From assembly GCF_900059565.1 (NCBI RefSeq), contig NZ_FIZW01000002.1, positions 682,001 to 746,000 on the forward strand: a stretch of 64,000 nt of DNA. Reading direction: 5' to 3'. Below, piece by piece: positions 10,652-55,745 of the stretch (the first letter of the stretch is position 1; each line of letters starts with the position of its first letter). The notes beneath the pieces are model-generated. The model was not told where the DNA came from, did not search any database, and saw only the letters and a list, made by a program, of their open reading frames with translations. Made by a program: the position numbers and the translations under genes. The stretch is from Murdochiella massiliensis. GTDB lineage: Bacteria; Bacillota; Clostridia; Tissierellales; Peptoniphilaceae.

Positions 10652-11447
10652 GAAAGTCTTGCTGCACTCCGATTCCGTTGCGGTCGATCACGGTACTGCT
10701 TTACGCGAAACGAAGTCCGCTTCCGAAAAAACGACTTCCGCGTTGTTGCAGGTGGAGGGTCTCAACGTCTTCTATGGCGCTATTCACGCCATCAAGGACA
10801 TCTCGTTTCAGGTCAATGAAGGCGAAATCGTCACCTTAATCGGTGCCAATGGTGCCGGTAAGACCACCACATTGCAGTCCATTTCCGGACTTCTGCCCAT
10901 CAAGTCCGGCAAAATTCAATTTGAAGGAAGCGATTTGGTTCACGTTCCGGCGCATAAGGTTGTCGGACGCGGAATTGCCCAGTCGCCAGAAGGACGCCGA
11001 ATCTTTACGAAAATGACGGTGGAGGAAAACCTCCGCATGGGTGCCTATCTTCAGTCCGAAGAAGCCGTCGTAAAAGCCGATTTTGAGCGAGTCTATGCTC
11101 TCTTTCCACGTCTTGAAGAACGACGTGAACAGATTGCCGGCACGCTTTCCGGCGGTGAACAACAGATGCTTGCCATCGGTCGCGCGCTGATGTCGCGTCC
11201 GAAGATGCTCATGCTGGATGAACCGTCTATGGGTCTCGCTCCGCTCATCGTGGAGCAGATCTTTTCCATCATTCGCCGCTTGCATGAAGCCGGTACCACC
11301 ATCCTGCTCGTAGAGCAGAATGCCCAGGCTGCCCTTTCCGTTGCCGATCGCTGTTACGTGATGGAAACCGGTCGCATTGTGATGGAAGGCTCCGGCGAGG
11401 AATTGTTAAATGCGCCGGAAATCAAGAAAGCGTATTTGGGCGGATAA
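10644..11447 (+). CDS. livF: branched-chain amino acid ABC transporter, ATPase LivF
   Basis: Second ATPase of the importer, pairing with LivG. Walker A is GANGAGKTT, the signature is LSGGEQQMLAIGRAL and Walker B is MLMLDEPSMGLAP, the LivF form. The ATG at 10644 overlaps the end of livG by eight bases and follows AAAGGAGG. Some 30 polar residues precede the ABC domain (LLQVEGLNVFYG), a second N-terminal extension in this operon. The chain ends right after the C-terminal helix (YLGG). Confidence 0.93.
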   Translation: MPEKVLLHSDSVAVDHGTALRETKSASEKTTSALLQVEGLNVFYGAIHAIKDISFQVNEGEIVTLIGANGAGKTTTLQSISGLLPIKSGKIQFEGSDLVHVPAHKVVGRGIAQSPEGRRIFTKMTVEENLRMGAYLQSEEAVVKADFERVYALFPRLEERREQIAGTLSGGEQQMLAIGRALMSRPKMLMLDEPSMGLAPLIVEQIFSIIRRLHEAGTTILLVEQNAQAALSVADRCYVMETGRIVMEGSGEELLNAPEIKKAYLGG

Positions 11448-11480
11448 ACGAAGCTTTGCCAGAGACCATTCGCGTGTCGT

Positions 11481-11600
11481 CGGCATGTCTGCCCCGGCAG
11501 CCTTCCTTGCGCCGCCGGCATGTCCGCCCTGGCACCCTTCCTTGCTCCACCGGCATGTCCGCCCCGGCACTCTCCCTTGCGCCGCCGGCTTCTCCTCGGC
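11481..11600. repeat. 35-bp tandem repeat downstream of livF
   Basis: Three full copies of a 35-bp GC-rich unit beginning CGGCATGTCYGCCCYGGCA start at 11481, 11516 and 11551, with a partial fourth at 11586. They differ by a few substitutions. No gene is supported here; the short open frames across it are in low-complexity sequence. Confidence 0.85.
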
Positions 11601-11739
11601 GATTTACTTGAGGATGACGAACTTCCGGTTCGTCGAAGATGCGGCGCGCGGAAGGTCGCCGGGGTGGTGGATGGTGCGGGCGAGGAAATTGCGGGGGCAA
11701 AGCTTTTTGGGGAGCGGCTTTGAACATGAATTACAGATC

Positions 11740-11785
11740 GCTGCCTTCGGCAGCGTTTTCAAATCGCCGACCATAGGCCGGCTCC
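11740..11785. repeat. double-hairpin REP-like element, copy B1
   Basis: CGCTG-CCTT-CGGCAGCG is followed by TTTTCAAATCGCC and a second GC palindrome (GCCGACC/GGCCGGC). It is the most diverged of five copies of a two-hairpin module seen in this window; the others are at 12286, 42721, 43156 and 49175. Confidence 0.7.
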
Positions 11786-11797
11786 TTATACAGATTA

Positions 11798-11826
11798 AGG
11801 AAGCGACGGATTCATCGCTTCCTTTT
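11798..11826 (+). terminator. rho-independent terminator, end of liv region
   Basis: AAGGAAGCGA and TCGCTTCCTT form a stem with a T tail. It lies about 350 bases after livF, beyond the 35-bp repeats. A near-identical stem follows the tlpA-like gene at 55143. Confidence 0.8.
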
Positions 11827-11880
11827 TGATTAGGAGATGTGCGCCGTTAGAAACCATGTTGGCGGGACGGCTTCGTGTAG

Positions 11881-11915
11881 AGCGCCGCTGGTGTCATCAT
11901 TGGCGGAGCAGTTTT
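11881..11915. repeat. GCGCCGC hairpin element, copy A1
   Basis: GCGCCGCTG, a short variable middle and TTGGCGGAGCAGTTTT form an imperfect palindrome. It belongs to a dispersed family also seen at 12243, 29617-29800, 30409-30540, 42780, 43213 and 55767. Confidence 0.7.
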
Positions 11916-11933
11916 GCACACGAAATATACACG

Positions 11934-12238
11934 TCCCTGGCTGCAAATAAGAGTGTACGTCAGCCAGGGTTGTTTTTTCTTTTCCGACCCTGGCTGAGCG
12001 AAGCAAAGTGTCATAGCCAGGGTTTCTTTTCATTTTTGAACCCTGGCTGCGGAAAATATCGTGCGCAAGCCAGGGGCGATTCACCGCCTCCAGGCCCTGG
12101 CTGGGCAAAGCTAAGTGTTATAGCCAGGGTTTCTTTTCATTTTCGAACCCTGGCTGCGGATAATATCGTGCATGAGCCAGGGGCTGGCATGCCGATTTAA
12201 CCCTGGCAAATGGCCAAAAATGTCTCCAGCCAGGGTCA
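11934..12238. repeat. GCCAGGG/CCCTGGC hairpin array 1, 53-bp period
   Basis: AGCCAGGG occurs at 11962, 12015, 12068, 12122, 12175 and 12228, a mean spacing of 53.2 bp. Between them lie inverted copies CCCTGGCT, so each unit is a potential hairpin with a loop of roughly 18 bases rich in T, and linkers that resemble each other but are not identical. No convincing gene lies in this stretch. The same word and period recur at 29886-30405 and 49068-49160. Confidence 0.9.
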
Positions 12239-12242
12239 TCCA

Positions 12243-12400
12243 AGTGCCGCCGAAACTGCTACTGGCGGCGCAATTTCTAAAGTGGAGCCGCCTTCGGCGG
12301 CGTTTTCAAATCGCCGGCCGCAGGCCGGCACCGCCTTTCTATGGTGATGGTGATATGGCATTTTCCTCAAATCGCCACAATCGCTAATATCGCAAGAAGT
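12243..12400. repeat. composite palindromic element A2-B2-D (mirror of 42662-42815)
   Basis: A GCGCCGC-type hairpin (12243-12275) is followed by the two-hairpin module GCCGCC-TTC-GGCGGC, TTTTCAAATC, GCCGGCC-GCA-GGCCGGC (12286-12330), and then a looser inverted repeat containing CACCATCACC on the complement. Read on the minus strand, the whole 150 bp aligns with the element at 42662-42815, with arms that differ but stay complementary. Confidence 0.8.
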
Positions 12401-12497
12401 GGTGGTAGTGCAGCAGTTTTGGTAAACAGCCACCATCGATAAAATCATAAACGATGGTGGTAGAATCCCCATTTCAGCAAACCACCACCATCGCTAC
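12395..12497. repeat. CGATGGTGG/CCACCATCG hairpin element (D1)
   Basis: CCACCATCG (12431-12439) and CGATGGTGG form a stem around an AT-rich loop, and another CCACCATCG follows near 12484. The related word pair is found at 42669-42711. Function unknown. Confidence 0.7.
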
Positions 12498-12546
12498 ATA
12501 CGTATACAAAAAGCTCCTCAGCAATGTCGCCTCCAAAAAAAAACTC

Positions 12547-12790
12547 TGTCCCACCACATCCTCAAAAGCCACCTCGTCCGCGAGTCGCCTCTTCGACGAG
12601 TCGCGACAGTTGCAATAGGCGATACAGCGAGGCGACGAGGAGAAGCGAGCGACAAGCGGACGAGGTGGCTTTGCCTGGACGAGGAGAAGCGAGCGACGAG
12701 CGGACGGGACGGCTTTGCCTGGACGAGGCGGCCTTCCCGAACATGAGAAGCGAGCGGTCAACTCACAAGGCCGCTTTGCTCAGCGAACGG
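12547..12790. repeat. long inverted-repeat element C1 with repeated arms
   Basis: AAAGCCACCTCGTCCG (12565) is matched by CGGACGAGGTGGCTTT (12657). Between them is a core that, on the minus strand, contains ACTCGTCGAAGAGGCGACTC, shared with the elements at 42491-42601 and near 29515-29540. Downstream the arm and part of the core repeat at about 44 bp (CGAGGAGAAGCG at 12636 and 12680, a diverged one near 12742). Open frames here are by-products of the repeats. Confidence 0.75.
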
Positions 12791-12816
12791 ACTTGGACAT
12801 AAAAGGCTTGACCTTC

Positions 12817-14805
12817 TCAGCTTAATTCCACCAATTCATCCACGATGGAGCCGATATACGCAATTGTGTCTTTCAGCGGCTTATCGGTGGTGATGTCCAC
12901 GCCGACGAGCGCGGCTTGGGCAATGGGATCTAACGATCCGCCGGCGGCGAGGAAGGAACGCCAAGCATTGACGACCGCCTGGCTCTCCGCGCTACCGGCA
13001 GAATTCTGGTCAACCCCATGGTCATGCAGTCCGGCAGCATTGCTATCCGCGATGACCGCTTGACGATCCGAGCCACCGACATGCTCCTCACCCGTTGCAC
13101 GGTCGTTCCGTCCAACCTTATTTCGATCCGAGCTGCCGGCCTTTCCGGACGCGGCATCGCCTTTTCCATTCGCTCCCGAGGACGCCATCAGCCGAAGCGC
13201 CATCTGGGTGCCGACGGTAAGGCCGGCGGAATAGGTATAGGAATAAAGGCCGTTGTAGTAGTGCGGTTGGCGCATCCAGGTGAGCGTAGAGCCGTCTTTG
13301 ATTTCCACCGCATCCCCCCAGAAGCGTGTCAAGACGTCGCGATAGATGCCGGAAAGATCGTCTGCATCGACGGAACCACCCCGATCCACGATACGATAGA
13401 CTTCACGCTGGTAGGTTGCCTCCAAAAGATGCGTCACAAAGTTGTGATAATAGGTCTTGGAAAGCATTTGTGAGAGCACCCATCGACGTTCACGCTTATT
13501 GTTGCCGGCTTTTTGGAGCAAATAATTTTCCATGATGAGCTCATTGGTGGTCGATGGCGACTCCACCATGTAAAGCGACATTTCCTTATTCAGATAGGGC
13601 TGCGCCGCACAGGTGAGCACGCTTTGGCCGGCATGGCCCAGTTCGTGGGCAAGCGTCGCCACTTCATCCATGCGGTAATTGAAACTGGTAAGAATATAGG
13701 GATGGACGCCGTAAACATCGGCACAGAAGGCACCGGTACACTTGCCCTGATTTTCGGCATAATCAATCCACCGCTCGTTGAAGGCCTGCGAAAGCATCTT
13801 CACATAGTCTTCGCCCAAAATGGAAAGGCCATCTTTAATGTACGTCGCCGCTTCCTCATACGAGACGTGAGAAACAAATGTAGGGTCCAGCTCCAACTTG
13901 AGATCGTAGCTCGTCATGGAAGGCAAGTTATAAACGCTCTGTAACAGACGCGCATACTTCTGCATAATGGGCGCAAGATCCTGCATGATGATGTCGATCT
14001 GACGGTCGTATAGCTCACGCGGCACCTCCTGATCGGCGAGAAGGAAGGAAAATACGGAATCGTAACCGCGCAGATCCGCTTCGATTTTCTCCTGCTGAAC
14101 ACGGGCGTTATACGCCGAGGCCGTGACATGACGATGACGGGAAAGTTCCCCGTAAAAGACTTCCGCCGCCCGATGGCGCAGGGCATGATCCGTCTCCGTT
14201 TCATAGCGATTTTCAAAGGTATTGTAGGTCATCTGGACGGTTTTGCCATTCACAGTAAATGGCGGAAAAACGGTGTCGCCGAATTTACTGTCCGCATAAA
14301 TCTGTTCCGGCGCCGCAAGAGTCGGTGCCATAGCCGCCAAGGCTGCTTCGGTTTCCGGCGAGAGAAAATGTGCCTTGTCTTTTGCGAGGCGCGCAAGATA
14401 GCGCGCATGCTCGGGCATGAGACGAGCCGCTTCTTCCCGTATGCCTTCTTCCATATGGGCAAGCGTGATCGGAACAAACGCCAGCTTCTTGCCGAGGATG
14501 GCGAGACGCGACGCAGTGTGTGCCTCCCGTTGCGCATTGGTCTTATTGGAGGTATCCTCCTCCACTTGCAGGGAGGCATAGGCCTCTACACGTTCCACTT
14601 GTGCAAACAGGTTCGCATACGCCGTCAACGCTTCATTCACCTGCTTTGCCGACGTCCATTTGCCATCATAACGCGCCACAAACGCATCAGCCTCTTGCTC
14701 TGCTTTTGTAAATGCCGCTTCAAAGGCTTCTTCGGTTTCAAAAATCGGACGAAGATCCCAAGTCTCTTCGACCGGCACCTCCGCGCGAGATACACTCTTT
14801 TCCAT
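12817..14805 (-). CDS. pepF: oligoendopeptidase F (M3B family)
   Basis: Cytoplasmic zinc metallopeptidase that trims short peptides, fitting a peptide-fermenting lifestyle. The zinc motif HELGH is at residues 387-391 (ATLAHELGHAG), with the expected downstream Glu region (MVESPSTTNE). The N-terminal PepF domain begins ETWDLRPIF. The family is usually about 600 residues; this one is 662 because of a Gly/Ser/Asp/Asn-rich insert at roughly residues 541-608, between MALRLMASSG and AVVNAWRSFL. The frame is open through the insert. Start ATG at 14805 follows GGAAAGGAG. It is divergent from the M29 aminopeptidase gene, with a dyad between them. Confidence 0.94.
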   Translation of the reverse strand: MEKSVSRAEVPVEETWDLRPIFETEEAFEAAFTKAEQEADAFVARYDGKWTSAKQVNEALTAYANLFAQVERVEAYASLQVEEDTSNKTNAQREAHTASRLAILGKKLAFVPITLAHMEEGIREEAARLMPEHARYLARLAKDKAHFLSPETEAALAAMAPTLAAPEQIYADSKFGDTVFPPFTVNGKTVQMTYNTFENRYETETDHALRHRAAEVFYGELSRHRHVTASAYNARVQQEKIEADLRGYDSVFSFLLADQEVPRELYDRQIDIIMQDLAPIMQKYARLLQSVYNLPSMTSYDLKLELDPTFVSHVSYEEAATYIKDGLSILGEDYVKMLSQAFNERWIDYAENQGKCTGAFCADVYGVHPYILTSFNYRMDEVATLAHELGHAGQSVLTCAAQPYLNKEMSLYMVESPSTTNELIMENYLLQKAGNNKRERRWVLSQMLSKTYYHNFVTHLLEATYQREVYRIVDRGGSVDADDLSGIYRDVLTRFWGDAVEIKDGSTLTWMRQPHYYNGLYSYTYSAGLTVGTQMALRLMASSGANGKGDAASGKAGSSDRNKVGRNDRATGEEHVGGSDRQAVIADSNAAGLHDHGVDQNSAGSAESQAVVNAWRSFLAAGGSLDPIAQAALVGVDITTDKPLKDTIAYIGSIVDELVELS

Positions 14806-29239: not shown

Positions 29240-29560
29240 GCCTTGCTCTACAAATGCATACACGTTTGCTGGGCGTTTCGGTCTGTACGCTCGCACACGT
29301 CCGTTCGGTTTTTTCTCCGCAAATTCGCATATGTCCGCTCAGCGTTTCGCCCTGCAAATTCGTACACATCCGCTCGGCGCACGCCCTTTGCTTCGCCCGG
29401 CAAATTCGTGCACATCCACTCGGCGCACGTCCTTTGCTTCGCCCGGCAAATTCGTGCACATCCGCTCGGCGCACACTCTCCTCGTCACTTCGCTTTCCAT
29501 TATACTTATACTGTCGTGACTCGTCGAAGAGGCGTCTCGCGGATGGTACGAATTTGCAAG
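29240..29560. repeat. long inverted-repeat element C3 with a multi-copy left arm
   Basis: GCAAATTCG-containing units recur at 29319, 29354, 29400 and 29446 (35 to 46 bp apart, earlier ones more diverged). Near 29470-29538 is the core TCTCCTCGTCACTTCGCT ... ACTCGTCGAAGAGGCGTCTC shared with elements C1 and C2. The right arm GCGGATGGTACGAATTTGCA (29539-29558) is the inverse of the repeated left arm. Several long open frames on both strands come from this repetition and are not genes. Confidence 0.75.
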
Positions 29561-29616
29561 GGATGTGACAGATATGTGACTTTTTTAGCACTGCTGTTGG
29601 AAAGCGGATCGTCTCT

Positions 29617-29800
29617 GGTTGCCTTTTGCAAACGCGCCGCTAACGGCGGGGCAAGCGGCGCTCCCTTCTGCAAACTCGCCGCCAACGGCGGGACAAGCGG
29701 CGCTCCCTTCTGCAAACTCGCCGCCAACGGCGGGACAAGTGGCGCTCCCTTCTGCAAATGCGCCGCCAACGGCGGAACCAGCGGCGCTCCTTCTGTGCGT
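29617..29800. repeat. 42-bp tandem array of GCGCCGC hairpins
   Basis: GCGGCGCTCC (one copy GTGGCGCTCC) starts at 29655, 29697, 29739 and 29781, exactly 42 bp apart, each with CTTCTGCAAAC and CGCCGCCAACGGCGG. On the minus strand each unit is the A-type hairpin GGAGCGCCGC...GTTGGCGGCG seen singly elsewhere. It appears to be a local amplification of the dispersed element. Confidence 0.85.
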
Positions 29801-29885
29801 TGAAAACAGAGGCAAGAGATTGTGTCTTTTTTTGCTTTCCGCATTTTCAGACATACGCTTCCCTGTCGCGAAGAAAAAACCCGTA

Positions 29886-30405
29886 TGACCCTGGCTGGAC
29901 AAAACTACAGTCCTTTGCCAGGGTCATTTTTCTCGGTCAAACCCTGGCTGACGATAAAGTCATTTAATAGCCAGGGCTGATTTTTTCGGCGTAACCCTGG
30001 CTAACAGAAAAAAAGTTTGACAGCCAGGGACGATCAGGTAGTTCCCAGCCCTGGCTGAGTAAAATGAAATATTATAGCCAGGGTCTTTTTCTTCCAACAA
30101 GCCCTGGCTAAAGAAAATAGTGTGCGCCAGCCAGGGTCGATCTTTGCGGCGAAACCCTGGCTAAAAGAAAAAAAGTTTGACAGCCAGGGACGATCCGGTG
30201 CTTCCCAACCCTGGCTGAACAAAACGAAATTTCATAGCCAGGGTTTCTTCTCTCCCGGCAAACCCTGGCTGCAGAAAATAGTGTGTGACAGCCAGGGTCA
30301 GGTATGCTATATCGAACCCTATCAAAGAGCAAAAGGTTTTTCCAGCCAGGGTCGAACACCATTTTTTGATCTTGGTAAAAAAATAAAACTATCCTAACCC
30401 AGGGT
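29886..30405. repeat. GCCAGGG/CCCTGGC hairpin array 2, 53/54-bp period
   Basis: GCCAGGG-type words start at 29916, 29969, 30022, 30076, 30129, 30182, 30236, 30290 and 30344, with a degenerate one at 30397; mean spacing 53.4 bp. Inverted CCCTGGC words alternate with them. The linkers fall into two alternating kinds (one with AAAATAGTGTG, one with AAAAAGTTTGACAG). Nothing coding is supported. Confidence 0.92.
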
Positions 30406-30408
30406 CAC

Positions 30409-30540
30409 CGGAGCACCGCTGGAATCAGTATTGGCGACGCGATTGCACAATGCGAAACACCGCCGAAATCAACGTGAAGGGTGCCGTTGATATGCTGAGT
30501 GCCGCTGAAATCAATATTGGCAGCGCGGTGGCAAAACGGA
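30409..30540. repeat. diverged A-type hairpin elements upstream of the tRNA
   Basis: ACCGCTGGAATCAGTATTGGC near 30413 (split: ACCGCTGGAATC, AGTATTGGC) and GCCGCTGAAATC, AATATTGGCAGCG near 30503 match the A element consensus, with a weaker copy (ACCGCCGAAATCA) between. Stems are partly degraded. Confidence 0.55.
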
Positions 30541-40315: not shown

Positions 40316-42418
40316 TTATTCCATCTTTTTGAGTATTTCTTTGGGGATGGTACGTTGTAATTCCTGCCATGTCCAGTCTTCCGCTTCCGACGCCGGGTCC
40401 GCATCGCCGGACAAATTCGTCGGCACGCTTCCTTTGTCTATCGCGCTTGCTGAGGGAGGCGTTGTTGGAACGGCAGTCGTTGGTACAGTTGTCGTTTTTG
40501 TCGACGTGCTCATCCCGTCCTTGGATTTCTTCCTGTCCTCAGGTTGCGTCCCATCCTTAGGTTGCTTCCTGCCCTCAGGTTGTGTCCCGTTCTTAGGTTG
40601 CGTCGACAAGCTCGTCAAATCCTTTAATTGTGTCGACCCGGTTGTGCTGCTCGAAGGTCGCCTTGCCGGTGATTCTTCGCCGAGATGCAGGCGGATCGTT
40701 TCCCCGGCAAAACGGGAAAATGCGGCGGACAGTTCTTCTTCTTTTCCCTTGAGGAGGGCGCCTTTTGCTTCGTTTTCCCGGGCATAGGAAACGTAAGTCT
40801 CGCCCTGGTGTACGTCTATTTTAGCAAAACGCCCCAGAAAAAACGTGGGCACGATTTTTTCTTTTTCCACAACATTGCGCCAGGCATTCTCATGGCGTCG
40901 ATACCAACCTTCGGGATCCGCCGAAAAGGAGTTGGATGGTGTAGTCGGCTGCGGAGCCGTCGTGGGTTGCACCGGCGTTGTCGGCTGTTCCGGACTTTGG
41001 GATGCTGTCGGCGGTGCAGTCTTCGGCTGTTCCGGACTTTTGGGTGCTATTGACGGTGTAGCCTTCGGCTGTTCCGGGCTTTTGAGTGCTATTGACGGTG
41101 TAGCGGGTTGCGGTGGCGCCGATGTTCGAGATGCACCGGCCGGCTGTGGAGCGACAGGTGCAACGGCAGACGTCGGTGTCTCTTTTGCCGATGGAATGGT
41201 AGCCTGCGGCGCGGTGGACGCAACCGCCTGCAACCGTTCCAGCGCATCCCGGATGGCTTTTTCCGGGGATTGCCAGCGTTCCACGATGGCCAGTTTTTGT
41301 TCCAGCGCGACAATACGGCTTTCCAGCACGCGCGGGGAGGCATAATTGATGAGTCGCGCGACGGCGGCCAGAAAGAGCGTTTCCGCGTGATCGGATTTTT
41401 GCAACAGCACCTCGGTTTCCACCAAGTGATCGACGGAGTCAAGCAGGCGCGTCATGGGAATGTCAGCCACGAGCTCCTCCATTTCCCGGCGTTCCATGTC
41501 CGAAATAGGTGCCTTCCACTCCTTGCCGGCCCCTTTGATCAGCAACAATTGCTGAAAATAGGCGATCCATTCCCGAAGGAGTACGGCAGCCTCTTTTCCT
41601 TCCTTAAGGAGGGAGGCGGCATGAGTCATTGCTGCAGTCATGCGATCATTCAACACATCACGCGTAAGCTCGGTCAGCGACAACTTGCCGGCAGTGCCAA
41701 GCACACGATCAACCAGTTCTTCCGTGATATCGGTATCGCCCATGGCCATCACCTGATCGAGCAGCGAGAGCGCGTCACGCAAAGCACCGTCCGCGGCACG
41801 TGCCAGAGCGGTCAACGCTTCCGGTGTAATCGTAACGCCCTGCTTTTCCGCAATGTAGGAAAGGCGTTGCGTAATAACTTCCACATCAATGCGCTTAAAT
41901 TCATAACGTTGGACGCGCGACAGTATAGTGGGCGGAATTTTTTCCGGCTCGGTCGTCGCCAGAATAAAAATCAGGTGTGCGGGCGGTTCTTCCATCATCT
42001 TGAGCAGTGCATTAAAGCCTTCTTTAGTGATCATATGGGCTTCGTCGATGATGTAGACCTTGTAACGCACTTGTGCCGGCGGATAAATGACGGTTTCCCT
42101 TAACTCCCGAATGTCGTCAATTCCGCGGTTGGAGGCGGCATCCATTTCGACGACGTCCATAGTGGTTTCGTCCAAGATGGCACGACAATGAGCGCACGCA
42201 TTACAGGGATTGCCTTCTTGCGGTTCCAAGCAGTTGACCGCGCGTGAAAAAATTTTGGCGCAGGACGTTTTGCCCGTGCCGCGTGTGCCGGAAAAGAGGT
42301 ATGCATGGCCGATATGCCCGGTCATGATCTGATTTTTCAATGCGGTAACAATAGCATCCTGGCCGACCACCTCGTCAAAGGTCTGTGGACGGTAGGCGCG
42401 ATAAAGAGCTTTTTGCAT
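40316..42418 (-). CDS. dnaX: DNA polymerase III subunits gamma/tau
   Basis: Clamp-loader ATPase. Residues 1-370 are the conserved part: start YRAYRPQTFDEVVGQD, Walker A SGTRGTGKTS, a zinc module with CLEPQEGNPCNACAHC, Walker B IIDEAHM and sensor region ATTEPEKIPPTILSR. Residues about 400-510 are a Pro/Thr/Ser/Gln linker with imperfect repeats built on SPEQPK and TAPQPTTP. A C-terminal folded piece (GWYRRHENAWRNVV...) is followed by another Lys/Gln/Asp-rich repeat area (about 600-670). 700 residues, long for the family because of these linkers. Upstream lies a kilobase of repeats. Confidence 0.96.
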   Translation of the reverse strand: MQKALYRAYRPQTFDEVVGQDAIVTALKNQIMTGHIGHAYLFSGTRGTGKTSCAKIFSRAVNCLEPQEGNPCNACAHCRAILDETTMDVVEMDAASNRGIDDIRELRETVIYPPAQVRYKVYIIDEAHMITKEGFNALLKMMEEPPAHLIFILATTEPEKIPPTILSRVQRYEFKRIDVEVITQRLSYIAEKQGVTITPEALTALARAADGALRDALSLLDQVMAMGDTDITEELVDRVLGTAGKLSLTELTRDVLNDRMTAAMTHAASLLKEGKEAAVLLREWIAYFQQLLLIKGAGKEWKAPISDMERREMEELVADIPMTRLLDSVDHLVETEVLLQKSDHAETLFLAAVARLINYASPRVLESRIVALEQKLAIVERWQSPEKAIRDALERLQAVASTAPQATIPSAKETPTSAVAPVAPQPAGASRTSAPPQPATPSIALKSPEQPKATPSIAPKSPEQPKTAPPTASQSPEQPTTPVQPTTAPQPTTPSNSFSADPEGWYRRHENAWRNVVEKEKIVPTFFLGRFAKIDVHQGETYVSYARENEAKGALLKGKEEELSAAFSRFAGETIRLHLGEESPARRPSSSTTGSTQLKDLTSLSTQPKNGTQPEGRKQPKDGTQPEDRKKSKDGMSTSTKTTTVPTTAVPTTPPSASAIDKGSVPTNLSGDADPASEAEDWTWQELQRTIPKEILKKME

Positions 42419-42484
42419 GGTTGCCTCCTATCCTCCATTTTAGCATAGGTGTTGGCGAGCAGAACAAAACTGCCACGTCCGGTC

Positions 42485-42605
42485 GCCTATGCAAAGCCGC
42501 CCCGTCCGCTCGTCGCTCGCTTCTCCTCGTCGCCTCGCTTTATAGCCATTGCTACGGACGCAACTCGTCGAAGAGGCGACTCACGGACGGGGCGGCTTTG
42601 CGGTG
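42485..42605. repeat. long inverted-repeat element C2
   Basis: GCAAAGCCGCCCCGTCCG (42491-42508) and its exact complement (42584-42601) flank a core with CTTCTCCTCGTCGCCTCGCT and ACTCGTCGAAGAGGCGACTC. The core is shared with C1 (12547-12790, opposite strand) and C3 (29470-29560), while the arms are different at each locus and still perfectly complementary. Confidence 0.8.
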
Positions 42606-42661
42606 GATGTGGTGGACAGTAGTTCTTTCGGGGGCGAAATTGCTGAGGGATTTTGATTACA

Positions 42662-42815
42662 CGCGCATAGCGATGGTGGTTTGAGGAAAATGGGTCTCCA
42701 CCACCATCGTAAAAAGGCGGTGCCGGCCTCCGGCCGGCGGTTTGAAAACGCCGCCGAAGGCGGCTACACTTTCGTAATCGCGCCGCCAACGCTGATTTCA
42801 GCGGCGCTCCGCTTT
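42662..42815. repeat. composite palindromic element D2-B3-A3
   Basis: In order: CGATGGTGGTTTGAGG ... CACCACCATCG hairpin (42669-42711); double GC hairpin GCCGGCCTCCGGCCGGC, GGTTTGAAAACG and GCCGCCGAAGGCGGC (42721-42765); linker ACACTTTCGTAATC; A hairpin GCGCCGCCAACGCTGA/TTTCAGCGGCGC. The minus strand of 12242-12400 has the same order. Confidence 0.8.
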
Positions 42816-42863
42816 ATTTTTCGTCGTGTGTCATTGAAATCGTGTTTGTTTTGCAATTATCGT

Positions 42864-43147
42864 GAAACCACTCTACCGATATGCAGGTCGGTGTGGAGTG
42901 GTTTTGCGTTTTTCGGCCATTCCCCTCTACAAGATGATGAATGGGTGTGGAGTGGTTTTGCGTTTTTTGACAGTTCCACTCTACAAGATGATGAATGGGT
43001 GTGGAGTGGTTTTGCCCTTTTCGACGGTTCCCCTCCACAGGATCGCGAAAGGGTGTGGAGTGGTTTTGCACTTTTTGGCAATTCCCCTCTACAAGATGAT
43101 GAATGGGTGTGGAGTGGTTTTGTGTTTTTCGGCCATTCCCCTCTACA
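42864..43147. repeat. GTGTGGAGTGG hairpin array, exact 54-bp period
   Basis: GTGTGGAGTGGTTTTG starts at 42891, 42945, 42999, 43053 and 43107, always 54 bp apart. Before each copy is an inverse word (AACCACTCTACC before the first, then CCCCTCTACA, CCACTCTACA, CCCCTCCACA, CCCCTCTACA), so each unit can fold. Loop sequence AGATGATGAATGG is mostly constant. The six-frame translations are repetitive artefacts. Confidence 0.92.
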
Positions 43148-43152
43148 GCATA

Positions 43153-43252
43153 AGGAGCCGGCCTTTGGCCGGCGGTTTGAAAACGCCGCCGAAGGCGGCT
43201 ACACTTTCGTAATCGCGCCGCCAACAGCAGATCCGGCGGCGCTCCGCTTTCC
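43153..43252. repeat. composite palindromic element B4-A4
   Basis: GCCGGCCTTTGGCCGGC, GGTTTGAAAACGCC, GCCGAAGGCGGC, then ACACTTTCGTAATCGC and a GCGCCGCCAAC ... GGCGGCGCTCCGC hairpin. It repeats the B3-A3 part of 42721-42812 almost exactly, so B-A modules flank both ends of the 54-bp array. The rest to 43472 has no feature I can support. Confidence 0.8.
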
Positions 43253-43472
43253 AACCGCACCAATGGTATTTCCGGCGTCGCTGCGCTGATTTCGACGCCC
43301 GAAGAACGCATTCATTTACCGCAGTTCATTTCGCCCTCACCACTATGCTGCCAGATTTTCTACCCACGAACAGCGTTTTCACGCCGAAACGGAACAGCAT
43401 GCCGCCGAAGATCACCCTCTGCGCACTAAAGGTGTAGTTCTATCGCGTATCGTGACCAAATAGCATGCTAAA

Positions 43473-49727: not shown

Positions 49728-50024
49728 TTGTGTCCCTTTCTCCACGATTCGTGTTTTTGGGACACAACTTGAGGCTCTTAGTCCGAAAAGTGTGTCCCTA
49801 TTTTCGCGTTTTGCGTTTTTCGGACACAAAAGGTGACTACCGTGCAGCGAAAGTGTGTCCCTATTTTCGCGTTTTGCGTTTTTCGGACACAAAAGGTGGC
49901 TACCGTGCAGCGAAGGCATGTCCCTATTTTCACGTTTTGCGTTTTTCGGACACAAAATCCACCATTGCTCCATGAAAATCGTGTCCCTATTTCGCACTTT
50001 ACGTTTTTTCGGACACAAAAGGTA
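49728..50024. repeat. GTGTCC/GGACAC hairpin array, 62-63-bp period
   Basis: Five units start GTGTCC (one ATGTCC) at 49730, 49792, 49855, 49918 and 49981. Each ends about 30 bases later in GGACACAA, forming a hairpin with loop CTATTTTCGCG, TTTTGCG, TTTTTC. Linkers such as GGTGACTACCGTGCAGCGAA are partly shared. The array sits between the HMA promoter and the ArsR gene. Confidence 0.92.
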
Positions 50025-55177: not shown

Positions 55178-55228
55178 GATGGCATGGCGAAGGCGCCTTG
55201 AATGGACGAGGTGTGTGTTTCACGTAAA

Positions 55229-55745
55229 TGCCAGGAGCCAACGTACCCTGATGACTTACTAAATTATGATGTTATCAGGGTTCGCATCCCTGACGAAAGG
55301 GCTAAAACGAGATGTTGTCAGGGTTCGAATCCCCGACGTAAAGGAAATATCGTGTTAATACAGGGGTCGACGTACCCTGACGGCTTGCTATGTTGAGAAG
55401 ATATCAGGGACGATGTCCCTGACGAAGAGTCAATTCACGTAATTCCAGGGATCAACCTACCCTGATGAATTGCTAAATTAGGATGTTATCAGGGCCGGCG
55501 TCCCTGACGAATGGCTGAAACGAGAGGCTGTCAGGGTCCGAACCCCTGACGAAGGGTAAATATCGTGTTAAAACAGGGTACGACGTACCCTGACGAATGC
55601 CTGAAACGAGAGGTTGTCAGGGTCGGTGTCCCTGATGAAGGGAAAATATCGTGTTAAAACAGGGCCAGCCCCCTGACGAATGGCTGAAACGAGAGGTTGT
55701 CAGGGTCTGCACCCCTGACGAATGGTTCATTTCGTGTTAATATCA
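55229..55745. repeat. TCAGGG/CCCTGA hairpin array, 42.5-bp mean period
   Basis: CAGGG words preceded by T, A or C start at 55275, 55318, 55360, 55404, 55445, 55489, 55531, 55573, 55617, 55659 and 55700, with a degenerate one near 55230. Each is followed after 7 to 12 bases by CCCTGA. Two linker types alternate: GAAACGAGAGGTTG-like and AATATCGTGTTAA-like, so the true repeat is about 85 bp. No coding region is supported. Confidence 0.92.

Follow-up and report, generated by a model that had tools for sequence, protein, structure and literature searches.

A dispersed family of gene-adjacent imperfect DNA hairpins with a conserved core and covarying arms in Murdochiella

A 64-kb stretch of DNA (hereafter the window; 682–746 kb of contig C2 in a 1.64 Mb, two-contig genome of Murdochiella, a genus placed in Peptoniphilaceae) contains three loci at which a constant core is flanked by arms that differ from locus to locus, each arm being matched by its own complement. 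What keeps such arms complementary while they change, and does the stem belong to an RNA, to a cruciform or to the end of a mobile element, the three options raised in the first-pass annotation?

The common core reported at these loci was found at all three, with ACTCGTCGAAGAGGCG occurring exactly at 12586–12601 (minus strand), 29519–29534 (plus) and 42563–42578 (plus). By chance, 0.54 matches with at most three mismatches would be expected in the window, and four matches were reached by no shuffle. Each exact core is the 3' half of an imperfect hairpin of ~ 110 bp, which we refer to as the C element; compared with shuffled sequence, positions 42488–42605 reach fold z-scores of −6.6 (RNA) and −6.8 (DNA). 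The locus-specific arms are equally real: 42491–42508 (GCAAAGCCGCCCCGTCCG) pairs with 42584–42601 at 18 of 18 positions, and 12565–12580 (AAAGCCACCTCGTCCG) is complementary to 12657–12672. At the third locus, 29446–29465 (GCAAATTCGTGCACATCCGC) does pair with 29539–29557, albeit imperfectly, and the originally proposed interval of 29470–29560 misses the 5' arm. Tandem copying at two of the loci was also correctly recognized, except that the copied unit is the entire outer half, an arm together with its core half, rather than just the arm. A fourth copy, divergent and of the D type described below, had been overlooked. The features of the window are as follows.

42491–42604, minus (purine) strand: full C element by dnaX, covariance model score 121.9 bits, E 2.6e-24
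42519–42531 (GCTTCTCCTCGTC) and 42563–42578 (ACTCGTCGAAGAGGCG): core halves of the dnaX C element
42463–42481, plus strand: degenerate outer half-unit between this C element and dnaX
40316–42418, minus strand: dnaX (DNA polymerase III gamma/tau), the gene toward which the 42491–42604 element turns its outer side
42605–43330: repeat island inward of the dnaX element, with GATGGTGG, GCCGGCC, GCCGCCGAAGGCGGC and GTGGAGTGG arrays
12560–12673, plus strand: C element downstream of pepF, core at 12586–12601, 121.3 bits
12634–12728, plus strand: gene-facing (outer) half of the pepF element repeated in tandem, 44-bp unit, 2.2 copies
29446–29560, minus strand: C element upstream of apbE, arms 29446–29465 and 29539–29557, core 29519–29534, 102.1 bits
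29346–29474, plus strand: tandem outer half copies at the apbE element, 46-bp unit, 2.8 copies
29561–30540: repeat island inward of the apbE element, 42-bp GCCGCCAACGGCGG units followed by a AGCCAGGG/CCCTGGCT array
11560–11669, minus strand: divergent D-type copy, 45.3 bits
11481–11589, plus strand: tandem outer half copies of the D-type element, 35-bp unit, 3.1 copies

One more degenerate unit of the 44-bp type extends at the pepF element to about 12770. The D-type copy at 11560–11669 and the element at 12560–12673 are inverted partners that enclose an island (11447–12817) between convergent genes.

Read on the purine strand from the outside in, the element has a variable outer arm of 18–19 bp, often with a GA/GA step. 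Next come 5 bp of stem and a small loop that is asymmetric, then CTTC/GAAG, and then GACGA, which faces GAGGA. A short, variable stem leads to the loop, which measures ~ 20–30 nt. The outer stem spans 18–24 bp, its arms being variable yet complementary, and the core (CTTC-GACGA ... C-GAGGA-GAAG) is imperfect and nearly invariant; CTTCGACGA and CGAGGAGAAG are near-invariant across the copies. The opposed GACGA and GAGGA may possibly be read as GA/AG, C-G, GA/AG, i.e. as two tandem G·A steps flanking a single Watson–Crick pair. There are two chief arm types, C (GCAAAGCCGCCCCGTCCG-like) and D (CCCCGGCATCCTTCCGCGC-like), connected by intermediates such as the copy at L076.

Searching with the core revealed more copies in this and related genomes, with arms that are complementary in most of them. 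The window's own genome (G000) contains seven exact cores as well as further relatives of them. A covariance model trained on 20 copies, with opposite-strand matches to the same site removed, found ~ 17 gene-adjacent sites in G000 and similar numbers in two other Murdochiella genomes, G001 and G004 (the latter from Murdochiella sp. Marseille-P8839), with 17, 16 and 15 strong sites, respectively. There was a single site in Levyella massiliensis (G003) and none in the fifth member of the genus (G002, 87% complete) or in 125 genomes from the rest of the family, outside this GTDB genus. When 84,980 species were scanned for the exact pattern, matches were confined to Murdochiella, Levyella and one Myxococcales MAG, and the last of these, judged from reading its GC-rich and probably coding sequence, looks like a chance match. 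No copy was found in the viral, phage and plasmid collections searched.

The alignment of these copies bears out the proposal that the arms of a dispersed family change in a coordinated manner around a constant core. Among 20 C copies, two-sided changes affect 20 of the 34 pairs, with 63 doubly changed cells compared to 18.2 after shuffling; this count was equalled in none of 500 shuffles, and the signal was lost once the partner was shifted by one to three columns. The arms of the same copy pair at 88% (C type) and 86% (D type) of positions, whereas arms exchanged among copies of the same type do so at 70% and 71%.

Covariation of this kind is widely taken as proof of RNA structure, but here it is strong and yet strand-neutral. 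On the purine strand, G·U mismatches number 59 in the 48 copies and A·C mismatches 79, even though this alignment was fitted to a purine-strand model that should favour G·U, a bias that opposes a DNA-level conclusion. Single-sided changes between orthologues comprise 61 G·U and 72 A·C. RNase P RNA, counted in the same manner at 22 loci in related genomes, shows 195 G·U to 7 A·C (it was taken as the control since tRNA offered only three molecules, too few for the strand test). The Fisher p-value for the difference between the element and RNase P, 9e-31, assumes independent cells and is only indicative, as copies and species are related and the counts are not independent events. The consensus fold energies of the two strands, −37.3 and −37.1, are virtually the same. 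Because G·U and A·C are about equally frequent and the strands are energetically equal, unlike in an RNA stem under selection, the structure is better explained at the level of DNA. Thus, of the three options considered initially, RNA is disfavoured, all the more as the element is used at both ends of genes and is followed by no terminator-like T run on either strand, and a cruciform or DNA hairpin fits best.

The elements are oriented with respect to genes. The CTTCTCCTCG half points toward the nearest gene in 44 of 46 copies, including 17 of 17 in G000, and the other half toward intergenic repeat arrays. With gene boundaries taken from our own codon-usage ORF caller, the median gap to the gene is 126 bp on the outer side and 881 bp on the inner side, the outer gap being the shorter one in 44 of 46 cases. 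On its outer side the element adjoins a gene 3' end in 26 cases and a gene 5' start in 22, and the genes involved (dnaX, apbE, pepF, secA, nrdB, those for serine dehydratase and a histidine kinase, and others) are functionally unrelated. Other intergenic repeats are found almost solely on the inner side, where the islands consist of arrays of short units (about 42–54 bp), many of which are hairpins. Tandem half-units are polar too, with the outer half repeated on the outer side in 15 of 48 copies and the other three combinations of half and side never seen. This orientation rule could partly be a by-product of islands growing one-sidedly after insertion.

The repeat islands have several other features. 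In the window, arrays of ~ 53–63 bp units occupy 11988–12184, 29969–30297, 42890–43147, 49787–50023 and 55219–55740, and at least three such intergenic arrays are built on a short inverted word (AGCCAGGG/CCCTGGCT, GTAGAGTGG/CCACTCTAC and GTCAGGG/CCCTGAC); no C element accompanies the islands at 49.8 and 55.2 kb. In the secA island of G000, two C elements inverted to each other flank an IS3-type transposase pair (HTH_Tnp_1 and rve; L055, 6929–8121). The Levyella copy (L084, 5800–6250), which carries tandem outer half-units, is placed between rpoC and rpsL. We rejected it as an rpsL leader, since a near-consensus promoter (TTGACG, 17 bp, TATACT) separates this element from rpsL. The elements are also clustered along the chromosome: 11 of the 18 G000 sites (one degenerate copy included) fall within 77 kb, ending about 32 kb from dnaA. 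Such clusters of ~ 80 kb, located at 880–957 kb of C2 in G000, 287–368 kb of C1 in G001 and 16–84 kb of C12 in G004, each lie to one side of dnaA, whose position is 988 kb in G000, 242 kb in G001 and C12:116 kb in G004, and hold more than half of the C and D elements in G000 and G001 and many of those in G004.

According to a comparison of flanking sequences, most G000 sites are matched by an element at the orthologous position in G001 and G004, and the single Levyella copy occupies the rpoC/rpsL site common to all four carriers. Between orthologous copies, the core diverges by 0.4% and the arms by 11–13% (G000–G004), or by 2.8% and 17–18%, respectively (G000–G001). Doubly changed pairs number 17 in the first comparison and 28 in the second, as against 4.8 and 8.8 expected if the arms changed independently. 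The low divergence of the core and the excess of double changes indicate that the core is constrained and that the arms turn over in a coupled fashion. In one case, the syntenic site at 934.7 kb of G000, two species have a D-type element and the third a C-type element with a mirrored TTTTTTT/AAAAAAA (T7/A7) run, which suggests wholesale arm replacement:

L056 8700–8809, L063 3013–3120 and L117 9553–9662: orthologous copies at the D/C switch site

We looked in orthologous loops for loop inversion, a footprint of template switching, and saw none. The full dnaX hairpin is present only in G000. We rejected a fresh insertion as its origin, since the orthologues in G001 and G004 keep the adjacent half-unit without the hairpin and loss elsewhere is equally likely; the site may be ancestral, with the hairpin lost in the other species. 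An old and mostly vertically inherited element is the best reading of these data.

The structure of the hairpin, the coupling of its arms, its strand neutrality, the constraint on its core and its orientation are all read from the sequence. The explanation that we prefer, and regard as probable though far from assured, is that of a lineage-specific, REP-like extragenic DNA hairpin or cruciform with a constrained core, serving as a boundary or landing mark. The element would act as DNA, either extruded as a cruciform or folded while single-stranded, and its mismatched conserved core would be bound by a putative chromosomal protein, a constrained core between freely changing but complementary arms being what is expected of a site that a protein reads in its folded form. 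The arms may stay complementary because template switching during replication copies one arm onto the other, which is a described route to compensatory changes in hairpins (PMC8794818; PMC7202029), because the hairpin is selected, or for both reasons. The gene-facing orientation suggests a border or landing role, with other repeats accumulating behind the element, away from the gene. A more elaborate form of this proposal, which we consider rather unlikely, is a dedicated boundary element, in which a genus-specific protein would read the core of the extruded hairpin, mark the border between gene and intergenic region and steer repeat insertion or fork restart, so that arrays would arise only away from the gene.

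A possible but doubtful alternative is that the elements are the ends of non-autonomous mobile elements similar to REPINs or MITEs, with an inverted pair of hairpins and the enclosed island mobilized together, by an enzyme that is unknown or since lost, and the present copies being old insertions. Its appeal lies in the dispersed copies that share an extended 3' flank (at dnaX, pepF and 1174 kb), in the inverted second elements that close several islands, the paired islands being 0.6–2.8 kb long, and in the C/D switch at a syntenic site. The flanks of the element are mosaic repeats, which prevents the reading of a clean target-site duplication. However, the ends of the element are its least conserved part and the centre its most conserved one, the opposite of terminal inverted repeats. 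The Y1/RAYT transposase (PF01797) is absent from G000, G001, G003 and G004, including all three Murdochiella carriers. Most sites are syntenic across the three species, the G000-only dnaX copy adjoins a half-unit that the other species also hold, and no copy was found in the phage, viral and plasmid collections. Among the five genomes of the genus, the only Y1-type transposase match comes from G002, the one in which no element was found.

We also judge it unlikely that the elements are neutral quasi-palindromes, whose arms are kept paired by template switching alone, whose tandem halves are made by slippage and which have no function. The equal frequency of G·U and A·C does fit a purely mutational process without function, the compensation being strand-neutral, and so does the homopolymer mirrored in the two arms of one copy. 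Long hairpins may also be tolerated, as SbcD above the family cut-off is missing from all five genomes (G000–G004), the only match being a weaker one of about 43 bits; this could allow long palindromes to exist, but it is not confined to the carriers of the element, and other genera without a full-scoring SbcD are also without the element. Purely mutational coupling of the arms leaves the constraint on the core unexplained: at 0.4% divergence in G000–G004, the core has retained mismatches that persist uncorrected, and the orientation is fixed. Some other Peptoniphilaceae likewise have no SbcD above the cut-off.

A structured RNA under stem selection, be it a 3'-UTR hairpin, an sRNA or a leader, is very improbable despite the strong covariation and the many copies that begin 1–50 nt from a stop codon on the sense strand, because the excess of G·U over A·C expected on the transcribed strand of a functional RNA is seen on neither strand and about half of the copies are located next to gene 5' starts, oriented in the opposite sense. 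Rfam has no match to the element at the gathering threshold, and the relaxed threshold added only a sub-threshold isrA match (13.6 bits versus 51). Although the hairpin is GC-rich and follows stop codons, standard intrinsic terminators are refuted and barely worth considering, since a run of at least four T within 12 nt past the hairpin is found in 0 of 48 copies on either strand and the element is almost as common at gene 5' starts.

The preferred reading, a DNA hairpin at the borders of repeat islands, has partial parallels in several known systems. The REP, BIME and REPIN sequences, both RAYT-associated and untagged, are also short imperfect extragenic palindromes that are dispersed, often located downstream of genes and often found in inverted pairs. 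They differ from the element in having a far shorter stem, which is conserved and carries a GTAG/CGTC tag, whereas the element has a conserved centre and variable arms, a fixed gene-facing orientation, tandem half-units and no RAYT that could be found. Assignment to the RAYT-REP class was rejected on the grounds that there is no GTAG tag or short conserved stem, that the arms are variable and 18–24 bp long, and that Y1 is absent from the carriers. The CGTC-tagged REPs have a CGTC end tag, an 8–9 bp stem, a 4–5 nt loop and a CCA tail (PMC3733652); the element, with its ~ 110 bp and a loop of about 20–30 nt, has CGTC inside the core and not as an unpaired terminal tag, and was rejected as a member of this class too. 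Integron attC sites are likewise imperfect hairpins in which the structure of the arms is conserved rather than their sequence; however, in attC it is the outer boxes that are conserved and IntI is required, whereas the element conserves the centre, and the best match to an IntI-class integrase (TIGR02249) scored 58 bits against a cut-off of 265. Like the islands described here, the intergenic mosaic elements of Neisseria (dRS3/RS; NIME) are repeat mosaics with short inverted repeats at their borders, but the border of the Murdochiella islands is a 110-bp hairpin with covarying arms; this comparison is by description and not by sequence test, and draws in part on PMC3733652. In template-switch quasi-palindromes, too, compensatory changes in the arms originate at the level of DNA (PMC8794818; PMC7202029); the element differs from them in that it forms a dispersed family whose core is constrained and uncorrected and whose orientation is fixed. 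Hairpins that sit in strict orientation at the borders of repeat islands open both template-switch evolution and the question of how repeats are kept out of genes to direct test in a small genome. Having failed the tests for RAYT-REPs, CGTC-REPs, attC sites, terminators and known RNA families, the element, with its many dispersed intergenic copies capable of forming hairpins, is a REP-like stem-loop family in the broad sense.
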